Positions 3,290 through 41,590 of a stretch of DNA of 64,000 nt are shown in pieces. The position numbers were made by a program, and so were the translations under genes. Position 1 is the first letter of the stretch. Each line of letters begins with the position of its first letter. The stretch comes from Flavobacterium sp. J49 (lineage in GTDB: Bacteria > Bacteroidota > Bacteroidia > Flavobacteriales > Flavobacteriaceae). The DNA lies in assembly GCF_011742145.1 (NCBI RefSeq), contig NZ_JAAQQU010000038.1, forward strand, positions 1-64,000, given 5' to 3'. Below the pieces are notes generated by a model, which did not search any database, was not told the origin of the DNA, and saw only the letters and a list, made by a program, of their open reading frames with translations.

Positions 3290-3290
3290 A

Positions 3291-9405: not shown

Positions 9406-9496
9406 GTTAGATTATTAGATTGTTAGACATTTTAGACGGCTTAGATAGTTGACTTTCTAAAAAATCTAACAATCTAAGCAGTCTAATACTCTAAAC
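9406..9496. repeat. Empty intercistronic hairpin, TTAGA family
   Basis: Both arms consist of repeated TTAGA/TCTAA words at about 10-base spacing: left 9406-9453, right 9454-9496. The arm on the left abuts the iaaA start codon and the right arm includes the stop codon of the cyanophycinase-like gene, so the hairpin fills the whole intercistronic gap exactly. Confidence 0.6.
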
Positions 9497-26209: not shown

Positions 26210-26776
26210 ATGAATCTCAACGAAGAAGTACACAAAGCTTTTGAAGTTATCCAAAATGGCGGTATCATCCTATATCCGACCGATACGGTTTGGGGAATCG
26301 GTTGTGATGCGACCAATGCAGAAGCCATACAAAAAATCTACGCCTTAAAACAACGAGAAGAAACCAAAAGCATGATCGTATTGATGAATGGCGAAAAAAT
26401 GATGTATAATGTTTTCAAAGACATACCCGAAGTCGCTTGGCAAATATTGGATTTATCCGAAAAACCAACGACCTTAATCCTTGACAATCCAAGAAATGTA
26501 GCCACTAATGTAATTGCAGAAGACAAAACCCTTGGCGTGCGTATCGTCAAAGAACCGTTTTGTTTCAAATTAATGGAACGCATGAAAAAACCTTTGGTTT
26601 CTACCTCAGCAAATATTTCGGGAATGTTTACGCCAAAATCTTTTAAAGAAATTAGCCCCGAAATTATAAATGGTGTAGACTATGTAGTAAATTTGCACCA
26701 CGAAAAAATTTGTGACAAACCATCAACGATTATCAAACTTACGAGTGATAGTCAGGTGAAAATCATCAGAAAATAG
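26210..26776 (+). CDS. tsaC: Threonylcarbamoyl-AMP synthase
   Basis: A 188-residue YrdC/Sua5-fold protein that makes threonylcarbamoyl-AMP for the t6A37 modification of ANN-decoding tRNAs. Motifs include LYPTDTVWGIGCDA, the KQREETKSM substrate loop and VSTSANISG. It is the short (TsaC) form without the Sua5 C-terminal domain. The stop codon coincides with the first base of the inverted repeat enclosing the next small gene. Confidence 0.95.
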   Translation: MNLNEEVHKAFEVIQNGGIILYPTDTVWGIGCDATNAEAIQKIYALKQREETKSMIVLMNGEKMMYNVFKDIPEVAWQILDLSEKPTTLILDNPRNVATNVIAEDKTLGVRIVKEPFCFKLMERMKKPLVSTSANISGMFTPKSFKEISPEIINGVDYVVNLHHEKICDKPSTIIKLTSDSQVKIIRK

Positions 26777-26800
26777 TTTTGACCGCAAATTCGCAAATTA
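26776..26800 (+). repeat. Left inverted repeat of the GxxExxY cassette
   Basis: GTTTTGACCGCAAATTCGCAAATTA. It contains two tandem copies of CGCAAATT-like words and matches the reverse complement of 27195-27218 at every position apart from one inserted G. It begins at the last base of the tsaC stop codon. Confidence 0.85.
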
Positions 26801-26813
26801 CTTTTTAACTAAA

Positions 26814-27197
26814 ATGGATGATTATTTATACAAGGATGAAAGTTATTCAATAGTTGGAATACTTTATGAAGTGCATAAAAATCTTGGTAAAGGTTTTTCT
26901 GAAATTGTTTATAAAGATGCTGTTGAATATGAGTTTCAGCAACAAAATATTCCTTATGAAAGAGAAAAAGAGTTTTCTGTTGCTCATAAAAGTACAACAC
27001 TAAAACATAAATTTTATGCAGATTTTGTGGGTCATGGAGAAATCATTTTGGAAATAAAAACAGTTGAATGCTTTAATAGCGCCCATTATAATCAGTGTCT
27101 GAACTATTTAAAAATTTCTGGAAATCAGTTGGCTATTCTTGCTAATTTCAATTTAATATCTTTAGAATACAAACGCATAATAAATTCAAAAAAATAA
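26814..27197 (+). CDS. GxxExxY protein, PD-(D/E)XK nuclease-like
   Basis: A 127-residue protein with the family-defining motif G27-E30-Y33 (GFSEIVY) and a nuclease-type core D70...E80-x-K82 ([14 protein letters not shown]). The family (PDDEXK_3) is widespread but its function is not established. The gene is nested exactly within a near-perfect inverted repeat: the left arm ends 13 bases before the ATG, and the stop codon TAA is the first three bases of the right arm. The insertion separates tsaC from cca, whose ATG is two bases past the right arm. Codon use is more AT-rich than in the neighbours. Acquired cassette is my interpretation. Confidence 0.9.
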
Positions 27198-27218
27198 TTT
27201 GCGAATTTGCGGTAAAAC
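27195..27218 (+). repeat. Right inverted repeat of the GxxExxY cassette
   Basis: TAATTTGCGAATTTGCGG followed by TAAAAC. It is the reverse complement of 26776-26800 with a single one-base gap. It supplies the stop codon of the cassette gene and ends one base before the cca start codon. Confidence 0.85.
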
Positions 27219-27219
27219 T

Positions 27220-28641
27220 ATGAATTACACAAAAGCATTAGACAATAAAATCTTCGAAATCATTTCAAAAGCTTCGCAAGAACTCAATCTTGAAAGCTAC
27301 GTAATCGGCGGATTTGTGCGTGACTATTTATTGCAACGCGATTTCAAAAAAGACATTGACATCGTAGCCGTGGGTTCCGGGATTGATTTGGCGCTGAAAG
27401 TTTCCCAATTGTTACCCAACAAACCCAAAGTACAGGTTTTCAAAAACTATGGTACGGCCATGTTGCGTTACAAAGAAATCGACATCGAATTTGTGGGTGC
27501 CAGAAAAGAAAGTTACACCCAAGACAGCCGAAATCCTTTGGTGGAAAACGGTACACTTGAAGACGACCAAAACCGTCGTGATTTTACCATAAATGCCTTG
27601 GCTTTTTCTTTGAATCCTAATAATTACGGTGAATTGGTTGATCCGTTTGATGGTTTGACCGACATGAAAAACAAACTCATCAAAACGCCTTTAAATCCGG
27701 ACATTACGTATTCTGATGATCCGTTGCGGATGATGAGAGCCATTCGTTTTGCGACACAATTGAACTTCACCATTGAAGAAAAATCTTTGCAGGCGATTGC
27801 CGATAACAAAGACCGCATCAAAATCATTTCGGGCGAAAGAATTGTAGACGAATTGAACAAAATTCTTGAAACGCCGAAACCGTCTATTGGTTTTTTACAT
27901 TTATACAAAACCGGCTTACTAGAGATTATTTTACCCGAATTGACCGCACTCAATAACGTAGAAGAAATCGAAGGTCATACCCATAAAAACAACTTCTATC
28001 ACACTTTGGAAGTGGTAGATAATATTTGTCCGAATACCGACGATGTTTGGTTGCGCTGGGCAGCATTGTTGCACGATATTGGCAAAGCACCTACAAAACG
28101 TTTCAATAAAAAACAAGGATGGACTTTCCACGGACATGAATTCTTAGGCGGCAAAATGGTGAAGAAAATCTTTGAAAGATTGCACATGCCATTGAACCAA
28201 AAAATGAAATTTGTGCAAAAAATGGTAATGCTGAGTTCAAGACCAATCGTATTGTCAGAAGATATCGTAACCGATTCGGCCGTACGCAGATTGGTGTTTG
28301 ATGCCGGAGAAGACGTAGACAATTTGATGACGCTGTGCGAAGCGGATATCACAACCAAGAATCCGACGAAATTCAAAAAATACCACAACAATTTCGATAT
28401 CGTTCGCCGAAAAATTATTGAGGTAGAAGAACGCGATCATGTGCGTAATTTCCAACCGCCAATTTCCGGAGAAGAAATTATGACCATATTCAATTTGCAG
28501 CCGTCAAGAGAAATTGGAGTATTAAAAGAAGCGGTAAAAGAAGCGATACTCGAAGGAGAAATCCCGAATGAATATCAAGCTGCCTACGATTTTGTTTTGG
28601 CTAAAGCGGAGAAAATGGGGTTGAAGAAAGTGGCAAAGTAG
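27220..28641 (+). CDS. cca: CCA tRNA nucleotidyltransferase with HD domain
   Basis: A 473-residue enzyme that adds or repairs the tRNA 3' CCA end. The N-terminal nucleotidyltransferase has [20 protein letters not shown]-like signature (cut here: [14 protein letters not shown]) and [10 protein letters not shown]; the tRNA-binding neck follows ([14 protein letters not shown]) and a C-terminal HD domain with HDIGK at about 287-291. Start ATG 27220 is chosen; the upstream TTG at 27199 lies inside the cassette repeat. Its last codons overlap the left arm of the next hairpin. Confidence 0.95.
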
Positions 28642-28664
28642 CAGAGTGACAAAGTAGCAAAGTA
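28631..28664 (+). repeat. Forward arm, CAAAGT family, overlapping the end of cca
   Basis: Four CAAAGT/CAGAGT words at about 10- and 8-base spacing. It overlaps the last codons and stop of cca. It can pair with the reverse arms at 28699-28730 (19 of 28 positions by my count) or at 29099-29126. Confidence 0.7.
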
Positions 28665-28698
28665 CATTAAAAGTGTATCTTGATTAAAATTAAACGCT

Positions 28699-28730
28699 GC
28701 AACTTTGAAACTTAGTAACTTTGAAACTTA
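28699..28730 (+). repeat. Proximal reverse arm, ACTTTG family
   Basis: GCAACTTTGAAACTTAGTAA followed by CTTTGAAACTTA. It is the inverse of the CAAAGT arm and a direct, imperfect copy of the arm at 29099-29126, so the four-helix gene is bracketed by direct copies of this arm and enclosed by inverted ones. Confidence 0.7.
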
Positions 28731-28738
28731 TTAAAAAA

Positions 28739-29098
28739 ATGAAAACATTTAGAGATTTATTGATATGGCAAAAAGCAATGGCTCTGGTAACAAAATGCTA
28801 TTCTACTTCATCAAATTTCCCTAAAGAGGAACAATTTGGATTGACATCCCAAATCAGAAGATGTAGTATTTCAATTCCAAGTAATATTTCGGAAGGATAT
28901 GGAAGAGGAACTAATAAAGATTACAGACGTTTTTTAAATATATCGTTAGGATCTCTTTTTGAATTTCAAACTCAAGTAGAAATAGCCTATAATTTAGAAT
29001 ATTTAACAGAAGAAAAATTTAATCAATTATATGAAGACAGCAGAGAATTGGAACGAATGTTAACTGCATTCATCAATAAAGTGAATGGTACTTTATAA
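28739..29098 (+). CDS. Four-helix-bundle protein, 23S rRNA IVS / Avd-like
   Basis: A 119-residue protein of the S23/IVP family (four helix bundle). The family core is clear: LIWQKAM, FPKEEQFGLTSQIRRC, SIPSNISEGYGR, FLNISLGSLFE. Family members are encoded in intervening sequences within 23S rRNA in some bacteria, and Avd of diversity-generating retroelements has the same fold; biochemical role is unclear, probably RNA or DNA binding. ATG 28739 is chosen over TTG 28721, giving the same length as the paralogue at 41183-41542 (76 of 119 residues identical by ungapped count). It lies between cca and ctaA, within repeat arms. Confidence 0.92.
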   Translation: MKTFRDLLIWQKAMALVTKCYSTSSNFPKEEQFGLTSQIRRCSISIPSNISEGYGRGTNKDYRRFLNISLGSLFEFQTQVEIAYNLEYLTEEKFNQLYEDSRELERMLTAFINKVNGTL

Positions 29099-29126
29099 CT
29101 CTGCAACTTTGTAACTTTGTAACTTA
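29099..29126 (+). repeat. Distal reverse arm, ACTTTG family, abutting ctaA
   Basis: CTCTGCAACTTTGTAACTTT followed by GTAACTTA. It begins right after the stop codon of the four-helix gene, and its last A is the A of the ctaA start codon. It is complementary to the forward arm at the cca end, for example 12 of 14 over GCAAAGTAGCAGAG. Confidence 0.75.
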
Positions 29127-30145
29127 TGAAACGAGACAAATCAGTCATTTATTGGCTACTTTCCGGTTGTGTTTTAGTGTTTATTATGGTCGTAGTTGGC
29201 GGAATTACCCGCTTAACGAACTCGGGTTTATCAATGACCGACTGGCATTTGGTTACCGATACTTTTCCACCGATGAGTGAAGAGAAATGGATTCAGGCTT
29301 TTGAAGAATACAAGAAGTTCCCTGAATATCAAAAAATCAATATTCACAACGATTTTCAGTTGGATGATTACAAATTCATTTATTTCTGGGAATGGTTCCA
29401 CCGTTTTATCGGACGCATTATCGGTTTGGTATTTATCATTCCGTTTGTGTACTTTTTAATTAAAAAAAGAATCGACAAAGCCACTTTAAACAAGTGCTTC
29501 ATCCTACTCGGAATGGGCGCTTTGCAAGGTTTCTTTGGTTGGTTTATGGTAAAAAGCGGTTTGGTTGACAATCCGGATGTGAGTCATTTTCGATTGGCGT
29601 TGCACTTGACTTTTGCCTTCATCACTTTTGCGTACACACTTTGGGTCGCTTTGGATTTGATTTATCCGGAAAGAAAAGAAGTGATTTTACCTTTGAAAAA
29701 ATTGGCACGAATTACCCTGTTTTTCTTGGTTGTCCAAATCATTTACGGGGGTTTTGTGGCCGGTTTAAACGCCGGATTAGTGCATAACCATTGGCCGCTC
29801 ATGAGTGACGGACAGTTTTTCCACGACAGTATTGCTTTGGAAAAAGACAGTTGGTTACTGCGTTTCACCGAAGGGAAAAGCGGTGTTCAATTCGTACACC
29901 GAACGATGGCTTATGTCGTAGTTGGATTGATTCTATTTTTGTATTTCAAAAGCAAAAAATATACACTTTCGGCCCAACAACAAAAGGGTTTGAATGCCTT
30001 GGTTGTATTGGTGTTTGTACAATTTGCTTTAGGCGTTCTCACTTTGTTGTATGCAGTTCCTCTTTGGTTGGGATTGACACATCAAGTGGTAGCGTTCTTC
30101 TTATTGACAGCGATGACTTATACTTTGCATCGCTTGTCAAAATAA
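29126..30145 (+). CDS. ctaA: Heme A synthase, COX15/CtaA family
   Basis: A 339-residue polytopic inner-membrane enzyme that oxidises heme O to heme A for aa3-type cytochrome oxidase. About eight membrane segments; conserved GGITRLTNSGLSM after the first helix, EWFHRFIGR in the next, and QFVHRTMAY and LTHQVVAFF with the heme-ligand histidines. Length is typical of the alphaproteobacterial/Bacteroidetes type. The ATG directly abuts the distal repeat arm of the four-helix cassette, so its ribosome entry region is entirely repeat sequence. Confidence 0.95.
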   Translation: MKRDKSVIYWLLSGCVLVFIMVVVGGITRLTNSGLSMTDWHLVTDTFPPMSEEKWIQAFEEYKKFPEYQKINIHNDFQLDDYKFIYFWEWFHRFIGRIIGLVFIIPFVYFLIKKRIDKATLNKCFILLGMGALQGFFGWFMVKSGLVDNPDVSHFRLALHLTFAFITFAYTLWVALDLIYPERKEVILPLKKLARITLFFLVVQIIYGGFVAGLNAGLVHNHWPLMSDGQFFHDSIALEKDSWLLRFTEGKSGVQFVHRTMAYVVVGLILFLYFKSKKYTLSAQQQKGLNALVVLVFVQFALGVLTLLYAVPLWLGLTHQVVAFFLLTAMTYTLHRLSK

Positions 30146-30194
30146 TACGCTTGCCCTGACTATATTGTCGCAGTTACCTTGTTTACTAACTTAA

Positions 30195-30965
30195 ATGTCT
30201 AAACTTGCCGCCCAGGATAAATTTCTGGATTTATCGGATTACGGAAGATCATTCGGTAGATTTTTTGCTAATCAATTAAAAGATTCCCGCTTCACGCCTA
30301 TTCATGTCACCTTACTATTTGGGTTTTCCGGATTGATTGCGATTTATTGCATTTTGGAACAACATTATTTACTTGCCGGATTTTTCATTTTGCTAAAATC
30401 AGGAATTGATGCTGCCGATGGTGAATTGGCCCGGTTGAAAAATACGCCTTCGTATTCCGGCAGGTATTTAGACAGTGTGTTTGATATTGTCTTGAACTTT
30501 ATGTTTCTGATGGCCATTTGTTATGTTTCTCAAACCTCGATTTGGTATACAATCCTAGCTTTTATTGGGCTCCAATTGCAAGGCACTTTGTATAACTATT
30601 ATTATGTCATCTTGAGAAATAAATCGGTTGGCGGCGATAGTACGAGTAAAATTTTTGAATACAAAACTCCTAAAGCCTTGCCGGGAGAAACCCAAAAATC
30701 AGTCAATATCTTATTTGGTATTTACCAAATGGTCTACGGCACTTTTGATAAAATCATCCACGCTCTGGATTCAGAGGCTTACAAAGTCAAAACTTTTCCC
30801 AATTGGTTTATGACCTTGCTTTCGTTATACGGATTAGGCTTTCAATTGTTGATTATCGCCGTGATGTTACCGATGGGCTGGATTGAATTGATTGTGCCCT
30901 TTTTCATAGCTTATACTTTGCTAATCTTTGCCTTCATTGGCATTCGAAAAAAATGCATAGTGTGA
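30195..30965 (+). CDS. CDP-alcohol phosphatidyltransferase family protein
   Basis: A 256-residue inner-membrane protein with about six membrane segments. The catalytic motif D-x2-DG-x2-AR-x8-G-x3-D-x3-D is intact (DAADGELARLK ... SGRYLDSVFD). Such enzymes condense a CDP-alcohol or CDP-diacylglycerol with a second alcohol to make a phospholipid. The specific product cannot be told. It may share a transcript with ctaA, 50 bases upstream. Confidence 0.9.
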   Translation: MSKLAAQDKFLDLSDYGRSFGRFFANQLKDSRFTPIHVTLLFGFSGLIAIYCILEQHYLLAGFFILLKSGIDAADGELARLKNTPSYSGRYLDSVFDIVLNFMFLMAICYVSQTSIWYTILAFIGLQLQGTLYNYYYVILRNKSVGGDSTSKIFEYKTPKALPGETQKSVNILFGIYQMVYGTFDKIIHALDSEAYKVKTFPNWFMTLLSLYGLGFQLLIIAVMLPMGWIELIVPFFIAYTLLIFAFIGIRKKCIV

Positions 30966-31052
30966 ATTATGCAATCTTGAGATATAATTGCATAACAACA
31001 ACTTCCAACTAATTGCCGAAATTTATAGTCTGTAATTTTAAAACTATAAATC

Positions 31053-31235
31053 ATGCCGAATTCAAAAGAGATTGAAGGAAATTGGGAACAGCTAAAAGGA
31101 AAACTGAAGCAAAAATATGCCGACTTAACCGATGATGATTTGCTTTATGATGAAGGCAAAGAACAAGAAATGTGGGGAAGATTGCAAGAAAAGATAGGAA
31201 AGACTGAAAAAGAAATTAAAGCGTTGTTTGATTGA
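31053..31235 (+). CDS. CsbD-family stress protein
   Basis: A 60-residue charged protein that fits CsbD: it begins by [20 protein letters not shown] and continues with [21 protein letters not shown]. CsbD proteins are general-stress proteins of unknown mechanism in many bacteria. Single gene between two terminator-like regions. Small size and composition match the family. Confidence 0.92.
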
Positions 31236-31290
31236 ATTAAGTGATGCTTTGATTGTATTCGGAAAGGCTGCATCAATGAGTTTTTCCAAT

Positions 31291-31321
31291 AAAAAAGTCC
31301 CGATAGAATCGGGACTTTTTC
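31291..31321. terminator. Bidirectional terminator between csbD-like gene and thioredoxin-like gene
   Basis: AAAAAAGTCCCGAT and ATCGGGACTTTTT form a strong stem with A and T tracts on each side, between convergent genes. Confidence 0.85.
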
Positions 31322-31322
31322 T

Positions 31323-31928
31323 TTATACTTTTTTCTTGGCTTTTATCGAACAACCAATGGCTTTGGTGAGAGAAGGTGAAGGTTCACTTCCTTTTTCCAA
31401 GGCGGCGATGGCGTTTTCCAGATATTTTTCTTTTACTGCTGAAGCATCGTCTGAATTATCATCGATAGCGCCAATGTATTTTACCACCAAATTTTTGTCT
31501 AACAAAAACACGTGCGGTGTTTTCGTAGCGCCATATTGCGGATAAACCTGTTGCCCTTCATCTACTAAATAAGGAAAAGCAAACTTTTTGTCTTTGGCCT
31601 TTTCTTTCATTAACTCGTAAGTATCGGCCGGTTGTACTGCAGGATCATTTGGATTGATGGCCAAAAGCACATAACCTTGTTTTTTGTATTTCTTGGCCAA
31701 ATCATTAATTCGGTCTTCATATTTCACCGCAAACGGACAAGTGTTACAAGTAAAAACCACAATAAAACCTTTGGCGTCTTTGTAATCGGCCATGCTGTAC
31801 ATTTTGCCATCAACGGATTTCAGTTTGAAATCAGCGGCTTTGTCACCAGGTTGGTAACCATTGGAAACCACACTTTCTCCTACAAACAAACTGCTGAAGA
31901 ATAGAATTAAAAAAGGTAAAACTTTCAT
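31323..31928 (-). CDS. Exported thioredoxin-fold protein (AhpC/TSA-like)
   Basis: A 201-residue exported redoxin. An N-terminal signal segment (about 1-18) precedes a peroxiredoxin/TlpA-like domain with FTCNTCPFAVKYEDR, giving a CNTC pair where thioredoxins carry CxxC, and TKTPHVFLLDK with the cis-proline. Peroxiredoxin-like proteins of this group are common in Bacteroidetes; the redox partner is not known. It follows the TlpA-like gene by seven bases on the same strand. Confidence 0.88.
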   Translation of the reverse strand: MKVLPFLILFFSSLFVGESVVSNGYQPGDKAADFKLKSVDGKMYSMADYKDAKGFIVVFTCNTCPFAVKYEDRINDLAKKYKKQGYVLLAINPNDPAVQPADTYELMKEKAKDKKFAFPYLVDEGQQVYPQYGATKTPHVFLLDKNLVVKYIGAIDDNSDDASAVKEKYLENAIAALEKGSEPSPSLTKAIGCSIKAKKKV

Positions 31929-31935
31929 ATTGTAC

Positions 31936-32421
31936 TTAATTAAGATTGATAAATGAGTTTACGTATTCGTTGAGTTCGGTAAAATTTTCAAATTCGCGCT
32001 CGGCGAATAAATGCTTTTTACCTTGTATGAGTAATGTGGCCGGAATGGCACCCGACCAGTCTTTGTCGATTTTAGAAAGCCATGAATTGTAATCTTTGTC
32101 GCTTAGCAGCAAAACCTCAGCGGAGATTTTTTTTCTTTCTACAAAAGGGATAAGCTTTTTCTCGAGATCTTTTCTGCTGTCGAGACTGACCAATAGTACT
32201 TTTACCTTTTTATTCTCCTTGTGAAGTTGCTCAAAATAAGGTAACTCTTTGATACACGGTGCGCACCAAGTCGCCCAAAAATTTATCACATAAGTAGTTT
32301 GGTCTTCTTTGATTACAACTTTTTCAAAGTCGGCAAACTTTTCATAAACGGTTATTTGTGCCAAAGCATTACTGGCAAAGGTCAGGATGAAAAAGATTGA
32401 TATTGAGTAAAGTAACTTCAT
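31936..32421 (-). CDS. TlpA-family thiol-disulfide oxidoreductase
   Basis: A 161-residue periplasmic thioredoxin with a signal peptide (cleavage near SNALAQ) and the active site WCAPC in FWATWCAPCIKELPYF, followed by the cis-proline segment AIPATLLI. TlpA/ResA-like proteins reduce disulfides in the periplasm, for instance during cytochrome c maturation. It heads a two-gene unit with the AhpC/TSA-like protein downstream. Confidence 0.92.
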   Translation of the reverse strand: MKLLYSISIFFILTFASNALAQITVYEKFADFEKVVIKEDQTTYVINFWATWCAPCIKELPYFEQLHKENKKVKVLLVSLDSRKDLEKKLIPFVERKKISAEVLLLSDKDYNSWLSKIDKDWSGAIPATLLIQGKKHLFAEREFENFTELNEYVNSFINLN

Positions 32422-32530
32422 CAGAAAAATTAAGTGTAACGAAGTTAATGAGTTACGGTTTGGAATGGAATGTACTTAACAAAATTTTACCAACTTTAAC
32501 ATAAAGTAGTTACGCAACCGCTTACACTTT

Positions 32531-32623
32531 CTTTTTGTCATTTTGAGGAACGAAAAATCAAATCTTTCAAACCATTATGAGATTCCTCTATCGTCTAAAA
32601 AGACGAGACGGAATGACAAAAAG
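32531..32623. repeat. Hairpin repeat with TGTCATTTTGAGGAACGA end
   Basis: Ends CTTTTTGTCATTTTGAGGAA and GACGGAATGACAAAAAG are imperfect reverse complements, with GAGATTCCTCTATCGTC inside. The TGTCATTnnGA...GAGATTCCTC...GGAATGACA layout is a widespread intergenic repeat style in Bacteroidetes and other phyla. Confidence 0.6.
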
Positions 32624-32680
32624 GAAAAATAGTCCAAAAATCAACTTTTGAGCATTTCCTAGGCCTCGCAGCCAGCAAAC

Positions 32681-32800
32681 GAGCTTCGAACAGACAAGAA
32701 TGCTTTTCGGACATACAATAACAAGCTTCGGACAACCAAGAAAACATTTCTGACTGAAAGAAACAGCCTTCGGAGTGGCAAGATTGTGCTTCGGATGGAA
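32681..32800. repeat. Degenerate tandem repeat, about 20-22 base period
   Basis: Six units share the word AGCTTCGGAC or a variant (at about 32682, 32702, 32724, 32746, 32766 and 32787), with CAAGAA-like words between. Units are divergent, so the array is old or under weak constraint. It encodes nothing recognisable. Confidence 0.55.
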
Positions 32801-32905
32801 ATTGTAGGACTTTGCAGAATGTTTTGTATTTTAGCTGAGAGTATTTGTGATGAGAGTTGCGGATATTCGAGTTATGAGTAAATTTGAAAAACCTATTTAC
32901 CAAAA

Positions 32906-33382: not shown

Positions 33383-33423
33383 AAACTTCTTCCTCAAAAC
33401 TTTCCATAAAAAAAATGGTTTGA

Positions 33424-33440
33424 TTACCAAATTTTGGTAA
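33424..33440. promoter_or_regulatory. Perfect palindrome, candidate ParD operator
   Basis: TTACCAAATTTTGGTAA is a perfect 8-1-8 palindrome 24 bases upstream of the antitoxin ATG. It overlaps a possible -7 box (TAACTTTA, 33438-33445). ParD-type antitoxins autorepress through such sites, so binding here would shut the promoter. Confidence 0.6.
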
Positions 33441-33463
33441 CTTTACTTAAAATTGAGATAATC

Positions 33464-33712
33464 ATGGGAAAAAACACTTCAATATCATTAGGCAATCATT
33501 TCGAAAGTTTTATTGAAACAACGATTTCAAAAGGTCGTTTTAGCAACGCTAGTGAAGTTGTACGTGCCGGACTTCGTCTTTTGGAAGAAGAAGAAAATCG
33601 CGTAATCGTTTTGCGCAATGCTATCCGTGAAGGAATTGATAGCGGTCGCGCTGTCGACTTTGATCCGAAAAAGCATTTAGAAACAATGAAGTCAACAAAA
33701 AAGAATGGCTAA
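33464..33712 (+). CDS. parD: ParD-family antitoxin
   Basis: An 82-residue type II antitoxin. The N-terminal ribbon-helix-helix segment (MGKNTSISLGNHFESFIE) binds DNA; the conserved GRFSNASEVVRAGLRLLEEEE follows, and the C-terminus would wrap the toxin. The ATG at 33464 is chosen over a TTG 30 bases upstream. The gene overlaps the toxin gene by eight bases and has a perfect palindrome in front. Confidence 0.92.
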   Translation: MGKNTSISLGNHFESFIETTISKGRFSNASEVVRAGLRLLEEEENRVIVLRNAIREGIDSGRAVDFDPKKHLETMKSTKKNG

Positions 33713-33998
33713 GTTTTACTTAACCAACAAAGCCGTTGAAGATTTAGGAGCTATTTGGCATTATACGGTAGAAACTTGGTCTGAAAACCAAGCGGTTATT
33801 TATTACTCATTACTCATTGATTCTTGCCAAGAATTAGCCAACAAACCCAATCAAGGTAAATCATACGAAGTCGTTGAAAAAAACATATTAGGCTTTAAAA
33901 CCGGAGAACACCTAATTTTTTACAGAATAATAACTGAAAATGAAATCGAAGTGGTTAGAATTTTACACGGTATGATGGATCTAAAAAACCACCTTTAA
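33705..33998 (+). CDS. parE: ParE/RelE-family toxin
   Basis: A 97-residue type II toxin with the ParE pattern: AVEDLGAIWHYTVETWSENQA, a central LANKPNQGKSYE, and the C-terminal strands HLIFYRIITENEIEVVRILHG. ParE toxins poison DNA gyrase; RelE relatives cut mRNA, and the residues here fit ParE better. It overlaps parD by eight bases, which couples their translation. Confidence 0.92.
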   Translation: MAKFYLTNKAVEDLGAIWHYTVETWSENQAVIYYSLLIDSCQELANKPNQGKSYEVVEKNILGFKTGEHLIFYRIITENEIEVVRILHGMMDLKNHL

Positions 33999-34003
33999 AA
34001 CAC

Positions 34004-34759: not shown

Positions 34760-34764
34760 TTTTC

Positions 34765-34851
34765 TTAAGGTTCTGAGGTTCTAAGGTTCTGAGGTTCTGA
34801 GGTTCTGAGGTCTTTTTACTTAAAACCTTAGTACCTCAGTGCCTTACCACC
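34765..34851. repeat. Empty intercistronic hairpin, AGGTTCTG family
   Basis: The left arm (34765-34811) is at least five 8-base copies of AGGTTCTG or AGGTTCTA; the right arm (34822-34851) is the inverse, AAAACCTTAGTACCTCAGTG and on. It fills the gap between the 2TM gene stop and the LytTR regulator start on the minus strand. The words are those of the arms around the four-helix gene at 41183-41542. Confidence 0.75.
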
Positions 34852-34856
34852 TATTT

Positions 34857-35165
34857 TTATTCCCATTTATTATTATTCTTCTCCTTCTCCATCAACTCTT
34901 TAATCTTTTTATCTTCCCAATTTTTGCCCAAAATCATCGTGGGTACAAAAACAGAAAATCCGTGCGCGGCCAAACCGATTCCCCAAAATAAAGGCGTGAT
35001 GAAGTTCTTCAAATGAAAAAAACCTTCGGAGGAATTTTTAGTGTTTACAACCAGCAAGATGATGTTAATCACCACGTAAACCGCAGCGTGACTATAGAAA
35101 CCTTTGATTCGCTTCACTCTTTTTACCGCTTCCTGGTATTTGATTTCGTCAATATTTTCCATCAT
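34857..35165 (-). CDS. 2TM domain protein (small histidine-kinase-associated)
   Basis: A 102-residue membrane protein of the 2TM type. An N-terminal amphipathic helix (YQEAVKRVKRIKGFYSHAAVYV) leads to two membrane segments and a short charged tail with WEDKKIKELMEKE. It is the third 2TM module in a row: the others are at 35165-35467 and the C-terminus of the kinase at 35470-36807. The stop of the upstream gene touches its start. Function unknown, presumably a membrane accessory of the LytS-like signalling unit. Confidence 0.88.
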   Translation of the reverse strand: MMENIDEIKYQEAVKRVKRIKGFYSHAAVYVVINIILLVVNTKNSSEGFFHLKNFITPLFWGIGLAAHGFSVFVPTMILGKNWEDKKIKELMEKEKNNNKWE

Positions 35166-35467
35166 TATTCAAATTTATTTCTTTTATTTTCTTCGTCCAT
35201 GTATTCTCTAATCTTTTTTTCTTCCCATTCTTGATTAAAAAACGGAAGCCAATTGAACACTTTCATCGCGTGAAAAAACAAACCAATTCCCCAACCCATC
35301 ATCGACCAAAAAAACCAAAGGTATTGCGGGGTATATTTTAAATTGATAAAAATTAAAATCGCCATGACTAAGATATAAGAAGCCAAGTGACTGTAAAAAC
35401 CTTTGATTTGCTCCACTTGTTTTTTGGCGCGTTGGTATCTTTCGAAGTCGTTATTATTTGTTTCCAT
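35165..35467 (-). CDS. 2TM domain protein
   Basis: About 100 residues, with the same pattern as its neighbour: METNNNDFERYQRAKKQVEQ, IKGFYSHLASYI, two membrane helices and the tail WEEKKIREYMDEE. ATG 35467 places the start three bases after the kinase stop; an in-frame ATG at 35479 that overlaps the kinase is possible. The start overlaps nothing else and the stop touches the next gene by one base. Confidence 0.88.
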   Translation of the reverse strand: METNNNDFERYQRAKKQVEQIKGFYSHLASYILVMAILIFINLKYTPQYLWFFWSMMGWGIGLFFHAMKVFNWLPFFNQEWEEKKIREYMDEENKRNKFE

Positions 35468-35469
35468 GA

Positions 35470-36807
35470 TTAACTCCATTTGTTATGCTGACTATTTTCT
35501 TTATTCAAAATTTCTCTGATTTTACGTTCTTCCCAACTTTTTCCGTAGCCAAAGGTTTCTAAGGCATGGAAAGTCAATCCCATTCCCCAACCCAACATGG
35601 GGAACCAAAACCATTGAAAACCGCCGGTTTTTAAATTGATAAAAATTAAAAACGGAATCACACAGCAGTAAGAAATTAAATTACCGTAAAATCCTTTGAG
35701 TTTTTCTACTCGTTCTTTGGCTTTCATGTAAGCCATATTCTCGTTGTAAATATTTTGTGTTTCCATGAGAACTATTTGTTTGGTTAAAATGGGAATTTTT
35801 ACTTTGAAAGCTGTCTCGGTTTGATCGACCAAGACTTTGCGCTCTGAAATCAATCCATAACGGTTGACTATGTTTTGCAAGCCAACGCCTTTGCGGTCTT
35901 GCAAGACTTCTTTCTTCTGTAAATTATTCTCAACGATTAAGTAATTGTTTTCAATATAAATTTTGATGTGTAGCGGTTTTTGCTCGCTTGCTACATTGTG
36001 TTTGATGGTGTTTTCCAGTAAAAGTTGCAACGACAAAGGCACCACTTTAGCTTCGGGATTATCATACTCAGTGGGCAATTCGTAACTGATGCTGTTTTCG
36101 AAACGCATTTTAAGCAAATTCATATACGTTTTGGCGAAAGCCAGTTCTTCCGCAACTGAAACCAACTCCTTGTCTTTCTGTTCCAAAACATAGCGGTATA
36201 TTTTTGACAAAGAAGTGGTGAACTTTTGAGCATTATCGGGGTTTTCTTCTATTAACGAACTCAATACATTGAGACTGTTGAACAAAAAATGCGGGTCGAT
36301 TTGGTTCTTCAAACTTTCGAACTGTGCCGAGGCCGTTCCGGCAATAACCTTTTGCTCTTTGACTTTGTTTTCGGCGTAAGCTTTGTAAAAATAAAACGCA
36401 TGAAAAGCCAAAGTCACTATAAATGTGATAATCACCGCTACCAAATAATTCGACATTTGCTCTTGACTTAAAAAGTCACTAAACGAAGTGCCCTCAACCA
36501 TTACATCCTCAAAAATGCGCAGCAAAAAAATCACACCGATGGAAATCAGAAAAGAAGACACAAAGCCAATCAAAATGCGTTTTGGGGTAAACCGGTCAGC
36601 CTTAAAAACTTGATCCAAATAAATAAAAATAGCAGCATTGGCAAAGTACAACGAAAATCCGTACAACATGTTGTACCCAAAGTTAACCAATAAAGCATAA
36701 TCAAAAGCCACTTGGTTTCCTGTAATCAGTCTGATTAACAACAACACCAAAAAGATACTGATGGAGATGATGATAGCTCTCGGGATTTCTTTTATCAATT
36801 GTTTCAT
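35470..36807 (-). CDS. LytS/YehU-type histidine kinase fused to a C-terminal 2TM domain
   Basis: A 445-residue membrane kinase. Four membrane segments (about 10-28, 38-64, 78-97, 120-142) precede a His_kinase domain with acceptor H173 in QIDPHFLFNSLN, the N box LLLENTIKHN and GVGLQNIVNRYG. The kinase would normally end near KVKIPILTK. Instead the frame runs through M348 (METQNIYNENMAY) into a complete 2TM domain resembling the two separate downstream proteins. This looks like a fusion by loss of a stop codon; M348 could also start an independent protein. ATG 36807 is preferred to an upstream TTG. Confidence 0.92.
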   Translation of the reverse strand: MKQLIKEIPRAIIISISIFLVLLLIRLITGNQVAFDYALLVNFGYNMLYGFSLYFANAAIFIYLDQVFKADRFTPKRILIGFVSSFLISIGVIFLLRIFEDVMVEGTSFSDFLSQEQMSNYLVAVIITFIVTLAFHAFYFYKAYAENKVKEQKVIAGTASAQFESLKNQIDPHFLFNSLNVLSSLIEENPDNAQKFTTSLSKIYRYVLEQKDKELVSVAEELAFAKTYMNLLKMRFENSISYELPTEYDNPEAKVVPLSLQLLLENTIKHNVASEQKPLHIKIYIENNYLIVENNLQKKEVLQDRKGVGLQNIVNRYGLISERKVLVDQTETAFKVKIPILTKQIVLMETQNIYNENMAYMKAKERVEKLKGFYGNLISYCCVIPFLIFINLKTGGFQWFWFPMLGWGMGLTFHALETFGYGKSWEERKIREILNKENSQHNKWS

Positions 36808-36820
36808 TACTTTCTTTTTT

Positions 36821-36891
36821 AGGTTCTGAGGCACTAAGATACTGAGGTACTGAGGTTTTTACCTAGAACCTTAGTGCCTTAGTGCCTTTTT
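36821..36891. repeat. Empty intercistronic hairpin, AGGTTCTG family
   Basis: The left arm (36821-36860) is built of AGGTTCTGAGGCACTAAG-type words, the right arm (36861-36891) of ACCTAGAACCTTAGTGCC-type inverse words. It lies between the kinase start and the stop of the next gene on the minus strand. Confidence 0.7.
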
Positions 36892-36893
36892 AT

Positions 36894-37514
36894 TTATTTA
36901 CAATTTTTCAAAGCTTCTTTGGCTCTGTCTGATCCCCATTTGGGATGAAAAGGCGTTTCGGGTTGGAATTTTTCAAACAACGGAATGGCACTTTGCAAAT
37001 CTTGACACAATTTTTTCACATCGGCTCCGGTCCATGGTGCGCTGTTGATTTCAAATTCGGCTTTGCAATATACTACTCTTGGATTTTCCGGAGCAATGAT
37101 TTTGGCTTTGGTATACAATTCTGTCACTTTTGGAGAATATTTCATCCCGTTTACCATAGGATCCTGAACAATCCAAGCGGTATAAATCATGGCTTGCATT
37201 ACCATCAGTTCCGGATTATTTAAGCTAATCATGGTAGCTGCATCTTGGGCATTTTGTGCTTTTTCCAACAAAGCAACTACTTTGGCTTTATTCGCCGGAT
37301 TAAAAGCTTCTGTTGTATTAATCAAAGCTACATAATAATTGGGTAACCAATTGTTTTTTTCTGCAGCAGCAATGCGTTCCATCAAATCCGAAGCTTCCTG
37401 TGCTTTTCCTTCACCCCAAAGTCCGAGTGATTTGGCCATACCTTGTTCATATTGTGTTTGCGCCGATAATAAAGAGCAAACGAAAAAAGCGATTGTAGTG
37501 ATAATTTTTGTCAT
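36894..37514 (-). CDS. Exported helical-repeat (TPR-like) protein
   Basis: A 206-residue periplasmic protein of unknown function. The signal peptide is MTKIITTIAFFVCSLLSAQT; the rest is helical with TPR-like spacing (AMIYTAWIVQDP, VTELYTKAKIIAPENP). The start at 37514 is chosen as it begins the signal peptide; the frame is open 183 bases further upstream without protein-like pattern. It lies downstream of the TonB-dependent receptor gene and probably shares its transcript, with a hairpin (37639-37706) between. Confidence 0.82.
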   Translation of the reverse strand: MTKIITTIAFFVCSLLSAQTQYEQGMAKSLGLWGEGKAQEASDLMERIAAAEKNNWLPNYYVALINTTEAFNPANKAKVVALLEKAQNAQDAATMISLNNPELMVMQAMIYTAWIVQDPMVNGMKYSPKVTELYTKAKIIAPENPRVVYCKAEFEINSAPWTGADVKKLCQDLQSAIPLFEKFQPETPFHPKWGSDRAKEALKNCK

Positions 37515-37638
37515 GTCTTTTAATGTATTGATGATTAAAACTCTTGTTATTTTATAGTCCAAAAGTATCTCGGTTTTGATTGCTGTAAAACTTATACTTA
37601 CTGAACTGTTGATTTTTGAGGATGAATTGTTTTCTTTA

Positions 37639-37706
37639 AGTTGCAAAGTTCCATAGTTGCAAAGTATTTTGACTTTGTTACTTTGCGACTCTGCCACTTT
37701 GTAACT
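37639..37706. repeat. Empty intercistronic hairpin, CAAAGT family
   Basis: The left arm AGTTGCAAAGTTCCATAGTT (37639-37666) pairs with the right arm ending CACTTTGTAACT (37672-37706) around a loop of about five bases; 23 of 28 positions match by my count. It starts one base from the receptor stop codon. The words are those of the arms at 28631-29126, which enclose a four-helix gene, so this is the empty counterpart. Confidence 0.78.
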
Positions 37707-39860
37707 CTACAAATTATCCAACTGATTCTCCTTCTTATTCTCACTAATGGTCCAAAAGAAACCCACAAAGAAAAACTGGTCAGCCGTTGGTCGAATGGCT
37801 CTTCGGTTGTAAACGCCTTCTGAGTTGGGCGAGTTGGCATATTCGTAGCCAAAAACATTTTGAGTTCCCAATACATTCGATACTGAAAAGTACAAAATCT
37901 TTTGTTGCGACATTAAATACGCCCAACCCAAACTCAAATTGTTATAGCCTTTGGTTTTGCCGTTCATAAATTCGGATTCATTCGGATTGTTATAAGGTCT
38001 TCCGGTGGTGAAGGAATTGGTAATACTCAATTGTGATTTCAGTTTGTTAATCCACCATTTGCTTACGACACTTAGACTATGATTGGCTACAAAGCTTGGG
38101 GTTACCTCTGCTGTATAATTTTTATAGTTTCTTTGGGTATCGATAAACGAATAAGAAACCCAGTATTCTACATTTTTAACGGTCTTATTGTCTCTCCAAA
38201 AAATGTCTAACCCTTTGGCATAACCCGAACCGGTATTGTTGAAATCGGTATCAAATTGAGCCGCATCTGTGTCGTATTTCACCAAATCGGAATAGTCTTT
38301 AAAGTAAGCTTCAGCGCGGAATGTTCTTCGGTCTTTGCTGTATTGGTAGTTCAAAATATAATGCTGTGCCTTTTCGCTATCCAAATAATCGGCATACTTC
38401 AAATAATCCTGTCTTGGCGCTTGGGTAAAACTACCGTAGGCAAAAGAAAACTGACCATTCTTGGAAACTTTATAGGCCAAGGAAGCTCTCGGAGCCACTA
38501 CGGTTTCGGCTAATAAATCATTGTTGGATAATCTTGCGCCTAATTTTACCGCAAAATTTTTAGAGAAGAAAATATCCGCTTCGGTAAAGAAAGCCGCAAT
38601 GTTGGCATCGTAACTGCTGTTAAAAGTATTGCCTTCGTAGGGTTTGAAATCTTCGTCGAATTTTGTGATAAAATAATCCCCGCCAAAAGACAACTTCACT
38701 CTTTCTGAAAAGGATTTTTTTAGTTTCAATTTGAAATGAGACGAATGTTCTGAGTTGGCCACCTTATCTAAATCAATACCGATTTTATTTTGGCTGTAAC
38801 CATAGCTCAAACCGGTAAACAACTGCCATTGCGAACCAAAATTGCCTTTGTAAGAGGAATTCAAATAAAAATTGTTATTGTCTAAATCCACTCGGATTTT
38901 ATCCGGATTATTGATAGATTCACTGTTAATGTCGAATTGAGAAGCTTCAAAAGCGGCGTATAACTTGAAAATTCCACTGGTAAAACTGTGTCGGTAAACC
39001 GCTTCACCCGAAAGCGATTGAAAAGGTTTGTTCCAATCGGCGCGTTGCGGAAATACCTTTTGATAGGGAGCCAAATTGATATAAGCCGTATTAAAACTTA
39101 AGGAATTGTTTTTCCATTTTTGGGTATTGGCTAAACCTAAACCAACGGTCATCAAAGAAATATCGGTTTTCTCTTCAACGGCTTCGTCTTGGGTATTTAG
39201 CAATAAAACACTCGACAACGCTTCGCCATATTCGGCAGAATATCCACCGGTAGAGAACGACATTCCACTGAACAAAAACGGAGAAAATCTACCGCGAGTT
39301 GGCACATTCGCCGTTGTGGCGCCATAAGGTTGTGCTACGCGAATACCATCTACAAACGTTTGGGTTTCATCGGCTTCGCCACCGCGAACGAACAATCTTC
39401 CGTCTTCGCCTACGGTTTGGGTTCCGGGTAAGGTTTGCAAAGCCGAAACAATATCACCCATCGCACCGGCAGTGGTTACTATATCTAATGGTTTCAAAAC
39501 CGAAACCCTGGCTTTTTCCCCGGCGTCAAAAGTTCCGGCAGTTACGATAACAGCATCGAGTGAGTTGACGCTTTCTTTCAGTTTGAACAATTTGTTTTGG
39601 CAAGTGGCAATGTCAATTGGTGCTTTTAATGTTTCATACGTTAAGAAACTAATCACTAAAATTTGATTGCCTTTGGCAGTGGTAGTGAATTTAAAGTTCC
39701 CATTCTCATCAGACGAACTGCCGTCGTAAGTGCCATCGATAAAAACATTGGCACCGGCGATAGGTTTGCTTTTTTCATCCAATACAGTTCCGGAAACGAT
39801 TTGTTGGGCATTGCTTACACAAGCAACTAAAAAAAGGATTAAGGTGTAAATCTTCTTCAT
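37707..39860 (-). CDS. TonB-dependent outer-membrane receptor
   Basis: A 717-residue outer-membrane receptor. Signal peptide (MKKIYTLILFLVACVSNAQ), a CarbopepD-like N-terminal domain (GTVLDEKSKPIAGANVFIDG), a plug domain with GDIVSALQTLPGTQ and RGGEADETQTFVDGI, then a barrel ending in an aromatic residue close to FFVGFFWTISENKKE. Proteins of this type import siderophores, vitamins or glycans with TonB-ExbBD energy; no SusD partner follows, so it is not a typical SusC. Start 39860 is the signal-peptide methionine rather than an upstream ATG. Confidence 0.92.
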   Translation of the reverse strand: MKKIYTLILFLVACVSNAQQIVSGTVLDEKSKPIAGANVFIDGTYDGSSSDENGNFKFTTTAKGNQILVISFLTYETLKAPIDIATCQNKLFKLKESVNSLDAVIVTAGTFDAGEKARVSVLKPLDIVTTAGAMGDIVSALQTLPGTQTVGEDGRLFVRGGEADETQTFVDGIRVAQPYGATTANVPTRGRFSPFLFSGMSFSTGGYSAEYGEALSSVLLLNTQDEAVEEKTDISLMTVGLGLANTQKWKNNSLSFNTAYINLAPYQKVFPQRADWNKPFQSLSGEAVYRHSFTSGIFKLYAAFEASQFDINSESINNPDKIRVDLDNNNFYLNSSYKGNFGSQWQLFTGLSYGYSQNKIGIDLDKVANSEHSSHFKLKLKKSFSERVKLSFGGDYFITKFDEDFKPYEGNTFNSSYDANIAAFFTEADIFFSKNFAVKLGARLSNNDLLAETVVAPRASLAYKVSKNGQFSFAYGSFTQAPRQDYLKYADYLDSEKAQHYILNYQYSKDRRTFRAEAYFKDYSDLVKYDTDAAQFDTDFNNTGSGYAKGLDIFWRDNKTVKNVEYWVSYSFIDTQRNYKNYTAEVTPSFVANHSLSVVSKWWINKLKSQLSITNSFTTGRPYNNPNESEFMNGKTKGYNNLSLGWAYLMSQQKILYFSVSNVLGTQNVFGYEYANSPNSEGVYNRRAIRPTADQFFFVGFFWTISENKKENQLDNL

Positions 39861-40035
39861 GGGTTTTGTTTTGATGAAGCAAACTTGCAACAAATCATGC
39901 AACTGGAGAATTTATGTTTACCGAATTGTAATTTTGAGTGGATGAATTGTAAATCATTATCAAAAAAAAAATATCTTTAACAAAAAAATACAAATAAAAA
40001 TCAGTAGCATTGCATTACCAAAAATCACTAAGACA

Positions 40036-40431
40036 ATGAAAATTATAAAATCACTATTGGCCATTGCGGCTTTCTTTGCCATTAACAGCGCATCGGCCCA
40101 AACAATTTCTGAAAGATGGCCTGAAATTAAAGCGTACCATGAAGTAATTTCCAAATCATTTCATTCTTCTGAAGAAGGAAACTTAAATCCAATCAAATTG
40201 AATTCTGAACTATTGGTCGAACGAGCAGAAGCCTTAGCTGTTGAAAATATGCCGGAAGAATACCGCACTCCAAAGCTCATAGAGTCGATAGTAGTTTTGA
40301 AAAAAGAAACCAAAAAAGTAAATGATCTGGTGCAAAGAAAAGCCGGAGACGAAGAAATAAAGAAAGCTTTAGCATCACTTCACGATACATTCCACAAAAT
40401 TGTCGGTTTGTGTCAAACCGAAAAGAAATAA
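40036..40431 (+). CDS. Hypothetical exported helical protein
   Basis: A 131-residue protein with a clear signal peptide (AFFAINSASAQT) and an all-helical mature part of about 110 residues rich in Glu, Lys and Leu. Four amphipathic helices can be drawn, ending in HDTFHKIVGLCQTEKK. It recalls four-helix cytochrome c556-like folds but lacks a CxxCH heme site. Family not recognised. A strong terminator follows. Confidence 0.78.
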   Translation: MKIIKSLLAIAAFFAINSASAQTISERWPEIKAYHEVISKSFHSSEEGNLNPIKLNSELLVERAEALAVENMPEEYRTPKLIESIVVLKKETKKVNDLVQRKAGDEEIKKALASLHDTFHKIVGLCQTEKK

Positions 40432-40433
40432 TT

Positions 40434-40464
40434 AAAAAAGCCCGACCTCAGCGTCGGGTTTTTT
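40434..40464 (+). terminator. Rho-independent terminator
   Basis: AAAAAAGCCCGAC and GTCGGGTTTTTT form a GC-rich stem with a six-base loop, directly after the helical exported protein gene. Confidence 0.85.
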
Positions 40465-40551
40465 GATGCAAATAGTTTTCAACAAATCGCTTTCACTAAA
40501 TCAAATATTGCAAATTAAATTTACCTTTGTGCGCTTATAAAAATTACGATT

Positions 40552-41088
40552 ATGATTTATAAATTCAGAGCCATTCTCGATGCCGAAGAAGATGTTTTCA
40601 GAGACATTGCGATTCAGGATGAAGACACCTTAGAAGATTTGCACAACGCCATTGTTAATGCTTTTGGTTTTGACGGTTTGGAAGTTGCTTCCTTTTACAC
40701 TTGTGATGACCAATGGAACCAAGAAGAAGAGATTCCGATGTTTGATTCGGGCGATGTTCCGGGTGAAATGAAAATCATGAGTGATTATCCTTTGAACCAA
40801 TTATTAGGCGAAGACCAAACCAAAATCATTTACGTATACGACTTCATCAATATGTGGACATTCTTAGTAGAATTGGCCGCAGTAGAAGAAGCCGAAACCG
40901 GCGTCATTTATCCCAACTTGCTATTTTCTCACGGCGAATTGCCTAATGTAGCTCCTGAAAAAGAATTTGAAGCCGAAAACGAAGACTTCTACTCCGAATT
41001 TGAAGATGATTTAGACGATGACGATTTGGATATGTTTGGTGGTGATGACAGCTTTGAGGATTTTGGATTTGAAGAGAATTGGAATTAG
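40552..41088 (+). CDS. pRiA4b ORF-3-like protein (TnpR-like fold), acidic
   Basis: A 178-residue protein of the PRiA4_ORF3 family, often named IS1096 element passenger TnpR family. The core IYKFRAILDAEEDVFRDIAI, LEDLHNAIVNAFGFDG and DYPLNQLLGED is present, and the last 40 residues are strongly acidic (DDLDDDDLDMFGGDD). Function unknown. Despite the name there is no transposase or IS end nearby. A TACCTTTG box lies at 40522-40529. Left arm of the four-helix cassette follows six bases after the stop. Confidence 0.85.
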   Translation: MIYKFRAILDAEEDVFRDIAIQDEDTLEDLHNAIVNAFGFDGLEVASFYTCDDQWNQEEEIPMFDSGDVPGEMKIMSDYPLNQLLGEDQTKIIYVYDFINMWTFLVELAAVEEAETGVIYPNLLFSHGELPNVAPEKEFEAENEDFYSEFEDDLDDDDLDMFGGDDSFEDFGFEENWN

Positions 41089-41093
41089 TTTTT

Positions 41094-41135
41094 GAGGTAC
41101 TGAGGAACTAAGGTTCTGAGGCGCTAAGGTTTTTA
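41094..41135 (+). repeat. Left inverted repeat of the second four-helix cassette
   Basis: GAGGTACTGAGGAACTAAGG and TTCTGAGGCGCTAAGGTTTT: five 8-base words of AGGTnCT(G/A). By my count 33 of 41 positions match the reverse complement of 41540-41586. Confidence 0.8.
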
Positions 41136-41182
41136 TTTATAAGATTTTTATTATTTTTAATTAAATTTAAAATCTTTACAAA

Positions 41183-41542
41183 ATGAGCAACTTTAGAAAT
41201 CTTCAAGTATGGCAAAAGTCCATGATACTAACTACCAACATTTACTTTACAACAAAGAACTTCCCCAAAGAGGAAATTTTTGGATTAACAGCACAAATAA
41301 GACGAAGTGCCATATCGATTTCAAGTAATATAGCCGAAGGCTTTGGAAGAGACAGCAATAAAGAATACCTGAGATTTTTGAACGTTTCAATTGCTTCATT
41401 ATTTGAATTGCAAACACAATTAGAAATCGGAAAAAACATTGAATACTTAACCGAACAAGAATTTAACAAGATATACGAAGACAGCCGAGAATTAGAAAGA
41501 ATGTTAGTTTCCTTCATCAACAAAATTAAAGAACGAGACTAA
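41183..41542 (+). CDS. Four-helix-bundle protein, 23S rRNA IVS / Avd-like, second copy
   Basis: A 119-residue paralogue of the protein at 28739-29098, identical at 76 of 119 positions without gaps. Family core: LQVWQKSM, FPKEEIFGLTAQIRRS, SISSNIAEGFGR, FLNVSIASLFE. It is enclosed by inverted repeats of AGGTTCTG words, and its TAA stop opens the right arm. An AT-rich leader of 47 bases (41136-41182) may carry a promoter. The DNA between the genes for the pRiA4b ORF-3-like and nucleoid-associated proteins is entirely this cassette. Confidence 0.93.
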   Translation: MSNFRNLQVWQKSMILTTNIYFTTKNFPKEEIFGLTAQIRRSAISISSNIAEGFGRDSNKEYLRFLNVSIASLFELQTQLEIGKNIEYLTEQEFNKIYEDSRELERMLVSFINKIKERD

Positions 41543-41586
41543 AACCTTAGAACCTCAGCACCTGAGTACCTTAGAACCTTAGAACC
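41540..41586 (+). repeat. Right inverted repeat of the second four-helix cassette
   Basis: TAAAACCTTAGAACCTCAGC followed by ACCTGAGTACCTTAGAACC-type words. The first three bases are the stop codon of the enclosed gene, and the arm ends four bases before the start codon of the nucleoid-associated protein. Confidence 0.8.
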
Positions 41587-41590
41587 AAAA

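Follow-up and report, generated by a model that had tools for sequence, protein, structure and literature searches.

Inverted arrays of five AG words accompany four-helix-bundle genes in Flavobacterium sp. J49 and across bacterial phyla

Three cassettes between protein genes

The window analysed here comprises the first 64,000 nucleotides (nt) of contig NZ_JAAQQU010000038.1 of Flavobacterium sp. J49 (positions 1–64,000; assembly GCF_011742145.1). It holds three small genes, each set between inverted arrays of short words: one encodes a GxxExxY protein, and two, named here ivpA (28739–29098) and ivpB (41183–41542), encode four-helix-bundle (4HB, PF05635) proteins. A first-pass annotation had described them as gene-in-hairpin cassettes; the architecture is real and far wider than that annotation had it, and the feature common to the loci is a word grammar that it lacked. 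The cassettes are composed as follows.

26778–26806, + strand: left arm of the GxxExxY cassette (words CGCAAATT), an inverted repeat of 29 nt, 93% complementary, with two CRCDRAK words
26814–27197, + strand: GxxExxY / PD-(D/E)XK (PDDEXK_3) gene (TIGR04256 9.6e-35, PF13366 2.9e-31)
27189–27217, − strand: right arm of the GxxExxY cassette, containing the stop codon; the ATG of the next gene lies about 3 nt on
28629–28662, + strand: AG array (five AG, pitch 8 nt) that overlaps the upstream gene's 3' end
28703–28728, − strand: near CT array of four units, closing a hairpin upstream of ivpA (fold z −3.25)
28739–29098, + strand: 4HB gene ivpA (PF05635 5.5e-42; 23S_rRNA_IVP, TIGR02436)
29098–29125, − strand: right arm with CT words, abutting the next ATG (29126); inverted-flank score 36
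41087–41128, + strand: AG array, six AG at 8-nt pitch, inside the left arm 41085–41133
41183–41542, + strand: 4HB gene ivpB (PF05635 9.4e-40; TIGR02436; closest solved relatives 2gsc and 2rld)
41546–41579, − strand: CT array (five CT, pitch 8 nt), with the following gene beginning at 41591

Profile searches confirmed the assignment of the three genes to two families (TIGR04256 and PF13366 for the GxxExxY gene, TIGR02436 and PF05635 for the 4HB pair), and the flanking inverted repeats proved real. The cassettes have inverted-flank alignment scores of 56, 43 and 36, the top three among 1,698 placements of a 380-nt pseudo-gene along the window, against a maximum of 28 in the 1,603 placements away from them. 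An inverted-repeat search returned the ivpB arms (41085–41133 and 41541–41589; 49 nt, 78% complementary); the ivpA arms are missing from its listing but reach 36 by alignment. As read from the sequence, each stop codon lies within the right arm or abuts it, and the next start codon follows 0–4 nt past the arm, as had been described.

A ranking of 1,090 genes, made blind to family over 1.2 Mb of the J49 genome (C95, the window and part of C96), put 12 at a score of at least 36, and eight of the 12 belong to the two families: all five 4HB genes and three of the four GxxExxY genes of that stretch. The remaining high scorers are two neighbours with the same arms and two genes between dispersed palindromes. 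A 154-amino-acid open reading frame (ORF) at G000:C95:280821–281283 lies between copies of the ATCCCGTTAGGGAT palindrome repeat.

The ivpA cassette has an additional, complete AG/CT hairpin just upstream of the start codon. Within 28626–28730, the left AG array of ivpA can pair with the near CT array or with the far one behind the gene, giving two exclusive structures. Both 4HB proteins match Avd/bAvd weakly, with Avd model scores (28.4 and 27.6) far below the cut-off of 80. Genome-wide there are nine matches to PF05635 and six to PF13366, and pieces of one broken gene account for two of the six; PF05635 matches occur in 60 of 61 sampled genomes of the genus and a relative of ivpA in 381 of 398.

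A word code around 4HB and GxxExxY genes

The word grammar was counted in a cross-phylum set of 4HB loci (the best 80 of at least 583, from 14 named phyla, in a scan seeded by the motifs SIPSNIAE or [LF]P..E) and in a genus set of 86 Flavobacterium loci, many of them orthologous, for a combined 166. A chain was defined as the same dinucleotide repeated at an exact pitch, and all 16 dinucleotides were compared with shuffles. Upstream of the 80 cross-phylum genes, AG chains of at least four occur at 58 loci (3.0 in shuffles) and of at least five at 48 (0.2); downstream, CT chains of at least four occur at 60 loci (0.6) and of at least five at 49 (0.0). The runners-up were GT upstream (21 loci) and AA downstream (24, with 8.4 in shuffles), so only AG upstream and CT downstream stand far out, and the two arms are equally strong.

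Two pitches account for the signal. A pitch of 7 nt was found at 40 loci upstream and 37 downstream and a pitch of 8 nt at 19 and 24, other non-harmonic pitches reaching 0–3 loci, and the pitch is identical in both arms at 50 of 50 loci. The modal chain has five words, both upstream (four in 11 loci, five in 29, six in 10) and downstream (12, 37 and 7). The code is present in at least one arm at 70 of the 80 loci, covering 13 of the 14 named phyla. Five is again the mode in the genus set (30 loci upstream, 31 downstream) and in the non-coding DNA of the J49 genome, where 88 AG/CT chains of at least four include 35 of four, 43 of exactly five and 4 of six; control GA/TC chains number 20, 7 and 4 at these lengths, and control chains of five or more number 27 for AC/GT and 16 for GA/TC. 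The recurrence of one architecture, with many words and both protein families, at intercistronic sites in mRNA-coding regions supports the earlier view of a recurrent class.

Pitch follows protein clade: on the 4HB protein tree, in which few forks are well supported, it changes 7 times against a shuffled mean of 22.7, and none of 500 shuffles was as low. Elsewhere in the 4HB set, the best chains at loci L281, L301, L305 and L312 are GA, GT/GG at pitch 9, and GC, perhaps variant codes. Beside one 4HB gene (G000:C96:22857–22999; also the contigs of L107 and L106), 21 CT at 7-nt pitch in AAGAAGC words form an array grown far past five.

The first-pass annotation had likened the arms to the stem of intervening sequences (IVSs) in 23S rRNA, and as a conserved feature this stem did not hold up. 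Arm complementarity exceeds the 99% point of swapped controls at 39 of 80 4HB loci and the 95% point at 59, and among loci with no significant complementarity the word code is still found in at least one arm at 34 of 41. Spacers were compared at those 38 of the 166 loci where both arms have five AG; 20 of the 38 are genus loci and not independent. Identity between the arms was 0.633 in mirrored order against 0.632 over all orders and 0.420 between loci, the mirrored order having a mean rank of 0.488 ± 0.039. Each locus therefore has its own word, alike in both arms, yet the arms are not base-by-base complements. Together with the equal strength of the arms, the unmirrored spacers favour a pair of equivalent recognition sites, one on each strand, over a binding arm with a pairing arm, although RNA stem and protein may act together, as had been suggested. 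A long imperfect inverted repeat (>140 nt) surrounds the 4HB gene of locus L136.

GxxExxY genes are flanked by a different word. In 30 GxxExxY loci of the phylum, CRCDRAK occurs 2.57 times per locus on the upstream sense strand (0.16 in shuffles) and 2.30 times on the downstream antisense strand (0.21), mostly at a spacing of 8–11, and is rare at 4HB loci (0.30 and 0.23). Arm complementarity passes the 99% control point at 10 of these 30 loci. The word was chosen after viewing the 30 loci; in 15 genus loci used as a check, of which 11 share one site and several had been seen beforehand, at least two CRCDRAK words were present upstream in 14 and downstream in 13, including one locus (L009) with arms that are not complementary. 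These counts suggest that GxxExxY proteins are a second, parallel case. AG chains were also sought around GxxExxY genes and rejected as their code (2 of 30 loci at pitch 8, none at pitch 7).

Gene-less hairpins and fixed junctions

The window also contains word hairpins that enclose no gene (none assigned to a strand). Three had been noted as empty hairpins and indeed fold as RNA; the last two were not in the first-pass annotation.

34765–34852: CTRAGG words (six AG, five CT), fold z −5.8 (34765–34856)
36821–36891: CTRAGG words, fold z −7.8
37639–37706: CAAAGT words, fold z −7.1
9423–9494: TTAGAC words, fold z −5.4
3277–3370: GTTGTCG words, a tandem-word hairpin

Of 18 copies of the word CTRAGGNNCTRAGG in the 3.05-Mb genome, 12 lie within 34773–41582, and the reversed-pattern control gave 0. 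A census that did not discard overlapping arms found gene-less word hairpins in 16 of 612 intergenic gaps, against 0.67 in shuffles, distributed as 14 in 399 co-directional, 2 in 84 convergent and 0 in 129 divergent gaps. Cassette words are denser near their own cassette (27 matches in 661 kb) than near the genome's other cassettes (43 in 2,997 kb), as measured for 28 cassettes with an arm score of at least 33 and an own region of 20 kb (64 kb for the window). AG/CT chains of five number 53 in 113.3 kb of non-coding DNA here and 0 in 69.9 kb from one genome that lacks PF05635 matches. Few or no five-AG arrays were seen near the cassettes of genomes G010, G022, G032 and G058, all of which have the PF05635 family; around the G010 and G058 cassettes (L113–L116, L133–L136), AC/GT chains are frequent in place of AG/CT.

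The cassettes have neighbours that we take to be sua5, cca and ctaA. Of the 28 close homologues analysed from a set of 30, 8 adjoin the cca gene as ivpA does and 20 sit between the genes that flank ivpB, one of these 20 (L090) having no detectable arms. The ivpB junction (between the 40552 gene and the 41591 gene) was surveyed in 30 genomes. A 61–76% identical gene occupies it in 8 other genomes, so that nine, J49 included, have ivpB-like genes of at least 61% with arms; one has a 51% gene without detected arms and one an unrelated 4HB gene (30%) with GTTTAAA arms. No intact gene was found by tblastn at the junction in 19 of the 30, among which one has a CAAAGT hairpin (L228) and, by eye, nine have the same AAGANNC hairpin. 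Also among the 19, L227 shows a decayed 4HB gene with GTTTAAA arms still visible; at this junction L219 has an intact gene with the same kind of arm.

At the sua5–cca junction, 12 of 30 genomes carry a GxxExxY gene and many others, by eye, hairpins of other words. Other palindromic repeats occur at the same junctions: GTCATTTCGACGAAGGAGAAATC, and CCCTCTCC...GGAGAGGG (L045 and L058 in the sua5–cca gap; L217 and L225 at the ivpB junction). Some lineages thus keep a 4HB gene stably at these junctions, and elsewhere the place is taken by hairpins of other words.

In the set compared, proteins with a similarity above 55% are found at shared sites, save for one between-site pair over that value; the closest genome found is 88% identical in the CCA protein. 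The median dN/dS of ivpB orthologues is 0.08 (80 pairs with 0 < dS < 2 out of 120, with 20 unusable and 20 outside the range), and ivpB is under purifying selection. Insertion and mobility had been proposed by the first-pass annotation; as recent events they are not supported, given this selection and a junction shared with 8 other genomes of the 30 and by 20 of 28 homologues. Fixed loci whose arms do not co-occur with the genes had been named there as evidence against the cassettes; the loci are indeed fixed, but the arms do accompany the genes. Elsewhere in the window, at 33434–33998, lie two small overlapping ORFs that may encode a ParD/ParE-type toxin–antitoxin pair.

Explanations and known systems

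The AG code, its 7/8-nt pitch, the mode of five, the equal arms with the same pitch in both and the unmirrored spacers are shown here, as are the tracking of protein clade by pitch and the purifying selection on ivpB. The closest solved relatives of ivpB, 2gsc and 2rld, contain five chains each as deposited, and Xanthomonas S23p is described as a homopentamer (PMC4990558). The 4HB proteins here are accordingly named as predicted pentameric rings, and with a mode of five AG words the simplest inference is one word per subunit. One turn of duplex DNA is 10.5 base pairs; a pitch of 7–8 nt is unlike this, which makes a single strand the more likely ligand.

We lean, with reserve, towards a partnership resembling that of REPIN and RAYT but lacking a transposase. 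A single-copy, vertically inherited 4HB gene would lie between two inverted arrays of usually five words, the 5' array on each strand reading AG-N5 or AG-N6 five times; a pentameric ring would bind one AG word per subunit on single-stranded DNA or RNA; and binding to paired arrays would promote or maintain gene-less hairpins dispersed in the same genome. For one word family, the association with a cognate gene is shown: of the 20 genomes that have an ivpA/B-like gene, 12 contain at least eight CTRAGG matches, against 0 of the 41 that lack one (cut-off 1e-36), a comparison that still includes relatedness, genome size and the cassettes' own arms.

Several observations weigh against this partnership. 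CTRAGG matches are zero in 6 of the 20 genomes with ivpA/B-like genes, and a stricter cut-off of 1e-41 gives a split of 11 of 17 against 1 of 44; in genomes G006, G015 and G057 the cassette itself now has CAAAG words. The flanks in G010 and G022 have no AG/CT chain of five despite their PF05635 genes, and 10 of the 80 loci lack the code in both arms, some having GA, GC or GT cores at pitch 7 or 9. Non-coding DNA also shows an excess of AA/TT chains with a pitch of 7 (85 against 16–28 at other pitches). The idea that word follows protein in general was rejected: a Mantel test gave rho 0.097 (p 0.11), and when each site contributed a single cassette the p values at four identity cut-offs were 0.90, 0.45, 0.10 and 0.10, with 21, 3, 1 and 1 pairs. 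Only pitch tracks clade. The pentameric state rests on homology, and we know of no catalytic site in the four-helix fold that would serve dispersal. The AG code was found by inspecting the same 80 loci in which it was counted, yet five is also the mode among the 86 genus loci and in the genome census.

The main rival, which we regard as possible but unlikely, is an RNA regulator of the TRAP kind: the ring would sit on the AG array in the nascent mRNA, keep the hairpin open and control its own gene and the downstream gene of the operon, with the gene-less hairpins as its regulon. The order of arms suits it, since 13 pairs run AG-to-CT and 2 CT-to-AG (3 of the 13 using one common CT array) and AG would emerge first. 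So do the right arms that end near start codons, the gene-less hairpins, which occur in 16 of 483 co-directional or convergent gaps but in 0 of 129 divergent ones, the purifying selection on ivpB, and TRAP itself, which binds 9–11 NAG repeats with non-conserved spacers (PMC4347634). It sits poorly with two arms that are equally constrained, even though binding to sense RNA would involve the AG arm alone, with unmirrored spacers, and with very different words at the same junction in other species.

The model of the first-pass annotation, in which mobile cassettes insert into or generate intercistronic hairpins and a 23S-IVS-like stem is cleaved by RNase III, now appears improbable. Orthologous loci are fixed at low dN/dS, mirrored complementarity is missing and the code persists where complementarity is not significant; strong stems by fold z, junctions held by different genes or hairpins across species, and a Coxiella IVS with a stem and tandem GACAGAT heptamers before its S23p ORF (PMC4990558) speak for it. 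We give almost no credence to neutral slippage of tandem repeats in AT-rich intergenic DNA with a chance gene association: words do drift between orthologues as slipping repeats would, but the gene ranking, one dinucleotide of 16, two pitches, a mode of five and the many phyla already contradict it.

The partnership can be stated more broadly, a version on which we are evenly divided: S23/IVP proteins would assemble into pentameric rings, each counting five AG words along a single nucleic-acid strand, and would form, with inverted five-word arrays, a widespread class of protein-coupled repeats, of which 23S IVSs would be a special case and GxxExxY proteins with CRCDRAK a parallel. It would supply a concrete, testable ligand for families found in many phyla whose annotation goes no further than 'four helix bundle protein' or 'GxxExxY'. 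If true, a large class of short tandem arrays that are a puzzle of bacterial intergenic DNA would have an explanation, a single rule would cover IVSs, these arrays and REP-like elements, and the ring proteins with a symmetry that can be read from DNA would gain a new member. A literature search of open-licence PMC papers found no description of the AG code or of the general class.

Related arrays have been reported. TAACTGA heptamers, short tandem repeats just upstream of start codons that also occur in some Bacteroidetes and Cyanobacteria, differ from the cassettes in being direct repeats of one fixed word with no cognate gene named in the part of PMC4679880 available; S23 and four-helix terms are absent from the text of that paper. 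In Geobacter metallireducens, sites of four tandem octamers, paired on opposite strands at variable distance, were called global regulator binding sites, for which IHF/HU binding was proposed; the available portion of PMC2700814 makes no link to 4HB genes. TRAP shares with our model a ring that reads many short words, but it is an unrelated protein (no Pfam/NCBIfam match), and the arrays here have five words at 7–8 nt, not 9–11, in an inverted pair.

The Coxiella 23S IVS shares the protein family, an ORF within inverted ends and, before the start codon, heptamers that place AG at 7-nt pitch (PMC4990558). Location inside 23S rRNA was rejected for the cassettes, those of the window lying between protein genes and five conserved 23S k-mers being absent from all 80 loci. 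Unlike the Coxiella IVS, the arms here are unmirrored, and ivpB is under purifying selection, whereas Coxiella S23p is reported as decaying. REPIN/RAYT systems have a single-copy gene between inverted copies of a short repeat, and doublets of this repeat, able to form hairpins, are scattered over the genome that carries it (PMC3116915). The cassettes likewise have inverted copies of a dispersed repeat around the gene that recur elsewhere as doublets, and a gene that is vertically inherited and not itself mobile, as the shared sites and low dN/dS indicate. They differ in having no tyrosine (Y1/HuH) transposase, Pfam and NCBIfam yielding only PF05635/bAvd or PF13366, and in their repeat, which is a degenerate five-word array set by AG pitch in place of a single palindrome.

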